Assembly (NCBI GenBank): GCA_945868805.1
Contig: CAMBMO010000003.1
Coordinates: 62,001-126,000 of the forward strand
DNA: 64,000 nucleotides
Source: Singulisphaera sp. GP187
GTDB lineage: Bacteria; Planctomycetota; Phycisphaerae; Phycisphaerales; SM1A02
Direction: 5' to 3'
The notes beneath the pieces are model-generated. The model had not been told where the DNA came from. It ran no database searches and worked only from the letters and a program-made list of their open reading frames with translations. Each line of letters starts with the position of its first letter. The stretch's first letter is position 1. This document shows, one piece after another, positions 31,454-33,214 of the stretch. The position numbers and the translations under genes were made by a program.

Positions 31454-31632
31454 CACGACAAAGTACCCAACCCTCGCGGGCAGATCACGCCTTCCGGAGG
31501 GCGCTCTCTGCCGGTAAGACCGCCATTTCAGAAAATCTTTAGAAGTTCGGTAATGAAATGGAGAGTTGTCTCCTTATGTCAGTGCATAGGCGGCGGTTTC
31601 GGACCCGGAGTCCGCGAGAAAGTGGGGTATCC

Positions 31633-32886
31633 ATGTCTCGAGACGAAGTCCGTCGGGATCGAGTCAGTCAGTTTGTCGATCTCGCACGCATCTACCGAAG
31701 GTGGACGAAAGTCCAAACGGCACAGGCACTCGGGCGCGAGCCATCGAAGGTCGTGCCCGAAAGCGGAAATCCAAAGCTTGATCTTGTGGTCGGGCTCGCA
31801 GAGGCGCTCGACTGGGAAGTAGGCGATGTCGCCGAAGGCATTTGGCGCGACGAGGCAGAGTCGTACGAGCAGATTGAAAAGATCGCAGAGCGGGGATTCG
31901 CCGTGCTCGACCGCGAAGCAATCGAAGCACACCGTGCTGGGGAGTATCGACGCATGACCGAGCTTGCACGAGCGCTCTTCCTCGCAGCCCATACTGGGAG
32001 CGAGCGTGCGACTGCAGCGAATCGCCTCGCAGGTGCCTACGACGGACTCGGCCGGTACACGAAGGCTCTCGCGGCCTTGCAGCGCGGGCTTTCCGAACCG
32101 GAGGTTCCATCGCATGTCCGCATGATTCTCGAAGTGAATCTTGCGAATGCGCACTACGCGCTCTGGCATCTCGTCGAGGCGTGCGCCGTAGCAAACGGGC
32201 TCGTCCAACGATTCCAGGTGCGTGTTGCGCAAAGTCGTACCGAGCGGGTCGTTTGCGCATTTGGACACTATGTGCGTGGGCAGTCGCAGCGACGGCTCAT
32301 CGAAACGGATCCACTCAGTGGCAATGTCCACGCGGAGGCAGCGAAGGCGGACCTTCAAATCGCAATGGAGTCCTATGGAGCACTCGCGACGGAATTCGAC
32401 GATCCTTCGTACGCAGGAGTCGCAAACACCTGCACCGGAGCGATCATCGAGTGCAATGCGGCGCTCGGCATTGTCGATCCGATCTGCGCCGCGGAGGCTC
32501 TCTCCGTCGGACTCGATCAGGTCGTCGATGTCGCAAACTATCCACCCGGTGATTGGCTCGAGAGCTATGGTTGGTGGGCAGTGTTCGGTTGCAATGTCGC
32601 GCTCCGGGGATTGAGTGGTCCAGAGCTTCATCGTCACATGGCGATCTTCTCGAACAAGACTTCCGAGATCGCGGAGCGAATGGAGAACTGGTCGATGCGC
32701 GAGCGTGCCTTCACATTCGAGCATCTGCGCCGTCAGCGGATGAACGAATCGCTTGGATATTCGACCGAGTGGCTACTCGATGACGAGGATGTTCGCACCG
32801 TGACCGGGACGATGGGTCGTTTTCCGTCGTTCCGCGAGACTGGATGGCGAATACTGGAGAGTTCCCGTGCTCTGCACAACGCCTGA
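31633..32886 (+). CDS. XRE-type HTH regulator with TPR-like helical domain
   Basis: 417-residue cytoplasmic protein. Residues about 5-60 look like an XRE-type helix-turn-helix (KVQTAQALGREPSKVVPESGNPKLDLVVGLAEALDWEVGDVAEGI). The rest is all-helical with TPR character: HRAGEYRRMTELARALFLAA, ANRLAGAYDGLGRYTKALAALQRGL, MILEVNLANAHYALWHLVEACAV, FGHYVRGQSQRRLIETDP. The HTH-plus-TPR layout recalls RRNPP peptide sensors of Firmicutes, an inference from architecture only. Start ATG at 31633 is preferred over 31558 because the HTH begins just after it. A 102-residue exported protein is encoded 19 bp downstream. Confidence 0.7.
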   Translation: MSRDEVRRDRVSQFVDLARIYRRWTKVQTAQALGREPSKVVPESGNPKLDLVVGLAEALDWEVGDVAEGIWRDEAESYEQIEKIAERGFAVLDREAIEAHRAGEYRRMTELARALFLAAHTGSERATAANRLAGAYDGLGRYTKALAALQRGLSEPEVPSHVRMILEVNLANAHYALWHLVEACAVANGLVQRFQVRVAQSRTERVVCAFGHYVRGQSQRRLIETDPLSGNVHAEAAKADLQIAMESYGALATEFDDPSYAGVANTCTGAIIECNAALGIVDPICAAEALSVGLDQVVDVANYPPGDWLESYGWWAVFGCNVALRGLSGPELHRHMAIFSNKTSEIAERMENWSMRERAFTFEHLRRQRMNESLGYSTEWLLDDEDVRTVTGTMGRFPSFRETGWRILESSRALHNA

Positions 32887-32905
32887 AAGGCAGAAGGAGA
32901 TTCCC

Positions 32906-33214
32906 ATGAGAAGTATTTACAAGCGAAATCATTCTTCAAGTCGCGCATCGATCGCAACGACCGCGCTTCGAGCCGTGATGCTGTTGTTGGCATCGGTTAT
33001 GGCGGTCTCTGTCCTCGCGCCGAACGCGCAGGGCACGCCACCGCGCAGTCGCCAGCGAAGTGTCGTGGCGCAGATGTATCCGCAGGGGTTCGTGGACTTC
33101 ATGGATGCCGAGTTTGGTCGCATGTGGATGCACACCGTTCAGGAACGGGCCGTCCGCTGCATGTATCTGAATTGGCTCCAGAAGAACAGCGATCCCGCAA
33201 AGAAGGATTCCTAA
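32906..33214 (+). CDS. Small exported protein next to the HTH/TPR regulator
   Basis: 102-residue protein of unknown function. A basic N-terminus (RSIYKRNHSSSR) and hydrophobic core (ALRAVMLLLASVMAVSVLA) with a probable cleavage near PNAQG give a clear signal peptide. The mature part is about 60 residues, with VVAQMYPQGFVDFMDAEFGRMWMH and one Cys. The ATG at 32906 has a strong AGAAGGAG 8 nt upstream. It lies 19 bp after the regulator and almost certainly shares its transcript. Two stem-loops follow the stop (33254-33325). It could be a secreted signal precursor, an envelope protein or the regulator's target; the sequence does not decide. Confidence 0.65.
   Translation: MRSIYKRNHSSSRASIATTALRAVMLLLASVMAVSVLAPNAQGTPPRSRQRSVVAQMYPQGFVDFMDAEFGRMWMHTVQERAVRCMYLNWLQKNSDPAKKDS

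Follow-up and report, generated by a model that had tools for sequence, protein, structure and literature searches.

Conserved pairing of predicted HTH-TPR regulators with motif-bearing exported proteins in Phycisphaerae, a candidate partner-sensing module

Background

Two adjacent genes in a planctomycete genome raise the question of whether a TPR-containing regulator senses the exported protein encoded directly downstream of it, in the manner of the RRNPP receptor-propeptide pairs. The genes are located near the middle of a window of 64,000 nucleotides, which represents the whole stretch of DNA analysed here (contig CAMBMO010000003.1, positions 62,001 to 126,000; assembly GCA_945868805.1), and an earlier note had proposed that they form a peptide-sensing pair. 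The RRNPPA regulators are treated as a Firmicutes/Bacillota family in PMC9765709 and PMC12700828, in the main texts of which the string 'planctomycet' is absent, and searches of open-access PubMed Central found no description of a planctomycete RRNPP counterpart.

Layout of the locus

A gene coding for a 417 aa regulator (31633..32886, + strand; ATG at 31633, TGA at 32884-32886) is separated by a 19 bp intergenic gap (32887-32905) from a gene coding for a 102 aa exported-type partner (32906..33214, + strand; stop codon ending at 33214). The partner gene is preceded by a Shine-Dalgarno sequence, AAGGAG (32894..32899, + strand), six bases 5' of its ATG at 32906, and AGGAG-type ribosome-binding sites are also found before other partner genes of the genus. 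The layout described in the earlier note, namely a 417-residue HTH-TPR ORF, 19 bp, a ribosome-binding site and a 102-residue ORF, is borne out by the sequence, with the HTH and TPR parts being predictions. These correspond to an N-terminal helix-turn-helix domain (residues 3-71; 31639..31845, + strand) and a TPR superhelix (residues 79-410; 31867..32862, + strand). Alternative in-frame starts occur at 31558 for the regulator (442 aa) and at GTG 32867 for the partner (115 aa); position 31633 is the likelier regulator start, since relatives show 1-2 nt indels in the leader before it. The N-terminus of the partner is basic and is followed by a hydrophobic stretch, with residues 1 to about 43 resembling a signal peptide, as judged by hydropathy only. 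Its C-terminal tail (...KNSDPAKKDS) gives no Pfam PEP-CTERM match, and the window partner is thus not assigned to the PEP-CTERM proteins. The genes surrounding the pair look housekeeping from the ORF translations in the window.

Conservation and taxonomic range of the gene pair

The regulator and partner genes are found side by side in 18/19 genomes of the genus (G000-G018), while the nineteenth (G017; 83 % complete) contains neither. Identity within the genus ranges from 73 to 88 % for the regulator and from only 33 to 56 % for the partner. When the own genome and its relatives are considered, the regulator occurs in 33/61 and the small protein in 21/61 genomes. A sample of the class yielded regulator matches at E<=0.001 in 57/397 genomes, of which 48 are clear and nine weak (under 30 bits), while matches in a phylum sample (9/392 genomes) all fall within the window's own family or order. 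The 80 loci derived from named genomes (of 188 relatives) are mostly labelled as Phycisphaerales, Phycisphaerae or planctomycete MAGs. On the basis of these samples and labels the regulator family appears restricted to Phycisphaerae, with record titles serving to infer the class name. Seven loci (L087, L118, L068, L069, L075, L082 and L109) bear titles that name Chitinophaga, Bacteroidia or Singulisphaera; their regulators nest among Phycisphaerales MAG sequences and the titles look mislabelled.

Among 137 distinct regulators, a set from which identical proteins, proteins of <330 or >520 aa and loci with <150 bases downstream were left out, 121 are directly followed by an exported-type ORF. 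The gap between the two genes has a median of 15 bp, with 116/127 gaps between -20 and +35 bp. A motif described below is present in the exported partner of 89 regulators and missing from that of 32, while sixteen regulators have no exported partner, including six with a transporter or other non-exported neighbour ORF that were re-classed to this group. Several of the sixteen represent the first regulator of a tandem pair and four adjoin a transporter-like gene. The comparative data thus show a tight head-to-tail unit of a predicted HTH-TPR regulator and an exported-type protein across Phycisphaerae, and the small gene, the conservation of which the earlier note had put forward as a check, is indeed retained with the regulator. 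A regulator homologue with an apparent in-frame stop is encoded at L128:192-1415, followed by an intact partner with the sequence HTGQG; this regulator may be a pseudogene or the product of a sequencing error, and the locus was counted as partner-less, probably owing to the stop.

Predicted fold of the regulator

The AlphaFold2 model of the regulator, based on 55 sequences, is all-helical (pLDDT 90.6; pTM 0.80), with N-terminal helices at residues 3-22, 26-32, 49-59 and 63-71. HTH families of Pfam were matched in few of the 55 homologues (HTH_31 in three, HTH_3 in one and HTH_23 in one), in all cases weakly. The window regulator has a sub-threshold Pfam TPR match only (TPR_2; E 0.0049), and the regulator profile matched solved TPR proteins at E 4.8e-12. 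When a profile of 29 regulators was compared against the PDB, generic and designed TPR proteins were matched and no RRNPP chain was found at E<=1. Foldseek returned a single PDB match at E<=0.001, PlcR in complex with PapR7 and DNA (3u3w; E 1.1e-4). Alignment with VIA-align, which spans mainly residues 83-417 and barely covers the HTH part, gave Z scores of 22.5 for TSK, 18.9 for LGN, 18.2 for Rap, 17.9 for MalT domain III, 17.2 for NprR and 15.8 for AimR. The TPR part is thus RRNPP-like but not exclusively so, since the RRNPP receptors are equalled or surpassed by LGN and TSK. Overall, the modelling shows a predicted PlcR-like architecture, and, with a TPR superhelix predicted, the loss of the TPR groove that would have refuted the earlier proposal was not observed.

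Diversity of the exported partners

The exported partners range from 60 to 554 aa in length and belong to mostly unrelated families. BLAST comparison of 78 partners drawn from the 80 loci distinguished eight groups, with 51, 12, 6, 5, 1, 1, 1 and 1 members, respectively, and the motif is found in seven of these. The partners include proteins of ~100 aa, proteins with PEP-CTERM tails, beta-helix proteins (L139, L182 and L187) and an exported M64-type metallopeptidase (L192:235-1755, - strand; Pfam E 7.9e-49), in which HTGQG occurs shortly after the signal peptide. A PEP-CTERM-like C-terminal tail is carried by many of the distant partners, and exosortase is present in 14/14 genomes checked. Searches of NCBIfam and PADLOC gave no match for the regulator or the partner, and PHROG no meaningful match. 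For the small protein, a Pfam PycTM match (E 0.0056) was rejected, as it covers the signal-peptide region and lies below the cut-off, and a match to the RiPP Chryseobasin (E 0.15) was rejected as chance.

A five-residue motif shared by unrelated partners

The sequence H-[ST]-x-Q-[DEG] is the only recurring element found across the otherwise unrelated partner families. In its wider form, H-[STN]-x-Q-[DEGS], it occurs in 89/121 exported partners and, within the 80-locus set, in 69/78 partners as opposed to 0/78 other exported-like ORFs and 4/595 other ORFs. The PEP-CTERM control proteins likewise lack it (0/27; three of the 30 control loci yielded no parsed ORF). This class of sequences was derived from the very data used for counting it, and a scan of spaced residue pairs therefore serves as the unbiased check. 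All partners containing H[ST][VMI]QE were left out of the scan, as were six neighbours of non-exported type, and the remaining 67 were thinned to 60, all outside the window's partner type. H-x-x-Q headed the ranking of 1,600 spaced residue pairs (z 12.7), occurring in 35/60 partners against a mean of 6.2 after shuffling, while the full motif was present in 32/60 of this non-redundant set, for which shuffling gave a mean of 0.25 and a maximum of 3.

In the window partner the motif corresponds to H76-T-V-Q-E80 (33131..33145, + strand). The HTVQE columns 76-80 are invariant in 15 genus rows, and residues 74-82 have a mean conservation of 0.90, compared to 0.36-0.64 in the other segments. The window's partner type contains two repeat sites, and among 51 proteins scored the motif is found at site 2 only in 29, at site 1 only in nineteen and at both in two, with one being unclear. 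It is thus the motif, rather than its position, that is retained. Several loci (L085, L100, L130, L131, L135, L163, L165 and L194) encode a partner in which the motif is present twice. The flanking residues are near random, with no conserved cleavage flanks, and in the long partners the motif occurs soon after the signal peptide, e.g. at residue 35 of 524 in L139. The own genome contains 59 motif sites at the DNA level; among 30 examined, one of which gave no row, only that of the window is preceded, at a distance of 52-75 residues, by a start resembling a signal peptide. The sites of L223, L235 and L237 are preceded by a hydrophobic stretch at 48-102 residues, but lie within long frames. A role of the motif as a general sorting signal was considered and is unsupported, given its absence from the nearby exported-like ORFs and the PEP-CTERM controls.

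AlphaFold2 predicts a helical mini-domain in the window partner (residues about 58-94), with helices at residues 60-70, 74-77 and 80-94 modelled with high confidence, the third of which has HTVQE at its N-cap; Foldseek gave no match for this model (best E 3.7). The pattern [ST]-x-x-[DE] can be a helix capping box, and part of the motif conservation may therefore be structural. Capping does not explain the invariant H and Q, and in other partner families the motif occurs in stretches in which Pro, Gly and Asp are often abundant. As unrelated partners mostly share this five-residue tag, the pattern is suggestive of a regulator that senses the exported protein encoded next to it.

Groove residues and the motif

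The register of the TPR_2 match places R131, G134, D137 and G138 at TPR positions 6, 9, 12 and 13, and H100 at position 12 of the preceding repeat, positions which we take to face the groove. Together with N130 (position 5), the first four form a patch encoded at 32020..32046 (+ strand). Among the 89 motif-bearing systems, conservation is 1.00 for R131, G134 and D137 and 0.98 for G138, as opposed to 0.38-0.62 in the 32 systems with a motif-less exported partner. Across residues 85-189, the groove columns, which were grouped after the ranking was seen, drop by 0.43 in the motif-less systems and other conserved columns by 0.21 (Mann-Whitney p 0.005), while the mean drop for conserved columns of the HTH is 0.07. 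The motif label requires fourteen changes on the regulator tree, and motif-less regulators are found on longer branches. Among six supported independent pairs, 3.6 on average agree with this trend and none shows the opposite (p 0.125; not significant). The alignments are thus suggestive, rather than proof, of an erosion of groove residues where the motif is missing and of groove-motif co-evolution, in a direction that is consistent but at a level that is not significant after tree correction.

A conserved leader element

A 54-nt element, conserved in an alignment of 17 genus sequences, is located directly 5' of the regulator start (31582..31635, + strand). It incorporates a palindrome or hairpin, CGGAC-CCGGA-GTCCG (31600-31614), in which 96 % of the pair cells are preserved and a single pair covaries, with changes on both sides in 3/15 distinct rows. 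Each of the 18 genus genomes with the gene pair has one match to the element at E<1e-8, and it is absent from G017 (best E 0.24). No Rfam family was found for the leader and no second strong copy in the genomes scanned, which thus provide no indication of a wider regulon or of a target beyond the regulator's own leader. The element may act as the operator of the regulator or, in the RNA, as a hairpin close to the ribosome-binding site. In many other clades, too, apparent inverted repeats and GGGGCA-like stretches immediately precede the regulator starts (leaders of L086-L146).

Comparison with known peptide-sensing systems

Set against the definition of RRNPP systems in PMC10075063, the module agrees in size, TPR content, adjacency, ribosome-binding site and putative Sec export, the last as judged by hydropathy. 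RRNPP receptors measure 250-500 aa. The regulator, with 417 aa, lies within this range, and its TPR part is recognised by profile and fold, the Pfam E-value of 0.0049 being above the 1e-5 cut of the detector. The genes are adjacent, with 19 bp between them here and a median of 15 bp over 127 gaps. Validated propeptides measure 21-50 aa and RRNPP_detector allows up to 100 aa, lengths exceeded by the window partner (102 aa) and by many of its counterparts, which reach 554 aa. As no sequence kinship to the known receptors was found and partners extend beyond propeptide length, the module is not filed as a member of the RRNPP family. The proposal of an RRNPP-type pair is partly supported. It stands with regard to adjacency, the predicted TPR superhelix, the PlcR fold match and the shared motif, and falls short on sequence kinship, partner length and the predicted helical fold of the mature window partner.

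PlcR-PapR shares with the module a TPR receptor of similar size with an N-terminal HTH, which is here predicted, an adjacent exported-type partner after a short gap and a short conserved core inside a variable exported protein, and provides the best Foldseek match (3u3w). The module differs in lacking receptor sequence kinship, in belonging to a phylum other than Bacillota, in its partners of 60-554 aa rather than 21-50 aa, the mature part of which is predicted to be folded in the window's type, and in having an internal motif common to the whole class. In the Rap-Phr systems with tandem pheromones, the duplicated Phr pheromones of Phi3T and Phi105 show higher conservation than the intervening regions (PMC11343458), which resembles the repeated motif with variable flanks in one precursor seen here, and the TPR superhelix is comparable (Z 18.2). 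The Rap-Phr precursors, however, are short and derive from Bacillus phages. Rap also lacks a DNA-binding HTH, which is predicted in the regulator of the module. The enterococcal sex pheromones derive by cleavage from the signal sequences of lipoproteins and are recognised by PrgX, and thus set a precedent for an RRNPP-type receptor that reads a peptide from a larger exported protein. Their precursor genes, however, are not adjacent to the receptor gene, the peptide resides in the signal sequence and H-T-x-Q does not occur. Finally, the PEP-CTERM/exosortase system is shared to the extent that many distant partners have the tail and exosortase is present, but the tail is missing from the window partner and the motif from the 27 control proteins.

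Possible modes of action

The most far-reaching interpretation, to which we accord just under an even chance, is a sensing system limited to Phycisphaerae, in which HTH-TPR regulators would read H-[ST]-x-Q-[DEG] as a tag kept in, or grafted onto, unrelated exported proteins. If this is true, the cells use a short motif to gauge how much of a single dedicated envelope protein is made or exported, and the class possesses a system of its own in a Gram-negative-type lineage, independent of the RRNPP systems of Bacillota.

The best account of the pair itself is that the TPR domain would recognise the motif of its own partner and that this would feed back on the operon. In the form we favour, tentatively and as rather short of an even chance, the pair is a self-contained operon under its own regulation, which senses its partner in the manner of an RRNPP receptor and propeptide with a re-imported peptide. 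A peptide would be cut from the exported partner outside the cytoplasm and return via an oligopeptide permease, and the H-T-x-Q peptide would bind in the TPR groove, around H100, R131, G134, D137, G138 and N169. Binding of the HTH to the palindrome 5' of the regulator gene would be altered as a result, and expression of the operon, perhaps along with that of further genes, would follow the amount of exported partner. Opp-type binding proteins (SBP_bac_5) are encoded in 14/14 genomes checked, with two in G000, which permits peptide re-import but does not show it. Counter to a pheromone are the partners of up to 554 aa with beta-helix and M64 peptidase domains, the PEP-CTERM-like tails that would retain many of them, and the motif itself, which stays constant within the genus where pheromones diversify.

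The extracellular domains of the long partners, together with the PEP-CTERM-like tails and the exosortase in all fourteen genomes checked, would suit an ordinary operon. In this case some other signal would act on the regulator of an envelope protein, and the motif would serve the exported protein itself, as a helix cap, a protease or assembly site, or for envelope docking. The location of the motif at a helix cap in the window's partner type agrees with such a role, and the exported protein may have the envelope role that the earlier note gave as an alternative. We nevertheless consider the ordinary operon somewhat unlikely, as the motif accompanies the regulator through partner families that are unrelated, neighbouring exported proteins (0/78) and the PEP-CTERM controls (0/27) lack it, and groove residues erode in the systems without it.

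A third possibility, quite unlikely in our estimation, is that the regulator is a dedicated chaperone-sensor, the TPR groove of which reads the motif on the unexported cytoplasmic precursor. Slow export would cause the precursor to accumulate, occupy the regulator and alter operon expression, while the exported partner would work in the envelope; the TPR chaperones of type III secretion follow a comparable logic. Such a sensor would accommodate an internal motif with no defined flanks, carried by partners of any size and domain, located soon after the signal peptide of long partners (L139) and not diversified within the genus, and the restriction of the leader element to the own operon is as expected for a homeostatic loop. 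By contrast, the best fold match is a pheromone receptor and the motif copies are duplicated as in propeptides. That an unrelated regulator and small gene are merely chance neighbours is extremely improbable and is refuted by the recurrence of the same order in the genus (18/19) and of exported-type partners across regulators (121/137), with nothing found in its favour; the partner evolves fast and has no family match above the cut-off.

With its defined five-residue core, the class-wide module supplies a specific peptide and a putative receptor, along with residues that may make the contact and a possible DNA or RNA target. It thereby opens planctomycetes to direct tests of peptide signalling or export sensing.

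Motif-less systems and other variants

The strict motif is missing from 32 exported partners. Five of these, encoded behind tandem regulators, have ERW..PPWH in place of H[ST]xQ (L061, L063, L084, L104 and L110; also L099 and L115), with one exported protein for the tandem regulators, and duplication of the regulator may have been followed by a change of ligand. The distant regulators of L176, L177 and L178 are accompanied by exported partners of a different kind, with a GE.PSQWQG core, which at 60 aa are the shortest of all partners and nearer to the classical propeptide size. About six regulator copies are encoded in the single genome G033 (L052, L053, L054, L057 and L062), where near-variants of the motif such as HVSQE occur and several partners contain two tandem 'AM..FYG..W....VV...W' repeats. 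A divergent second regulator (27-29 % identity) is found in one genus (L204-L207), followed at -4 bp by a motif-less exported protein of ~100 aa, while the main regulator of this genus adjoins a cation-transporter-like gene.
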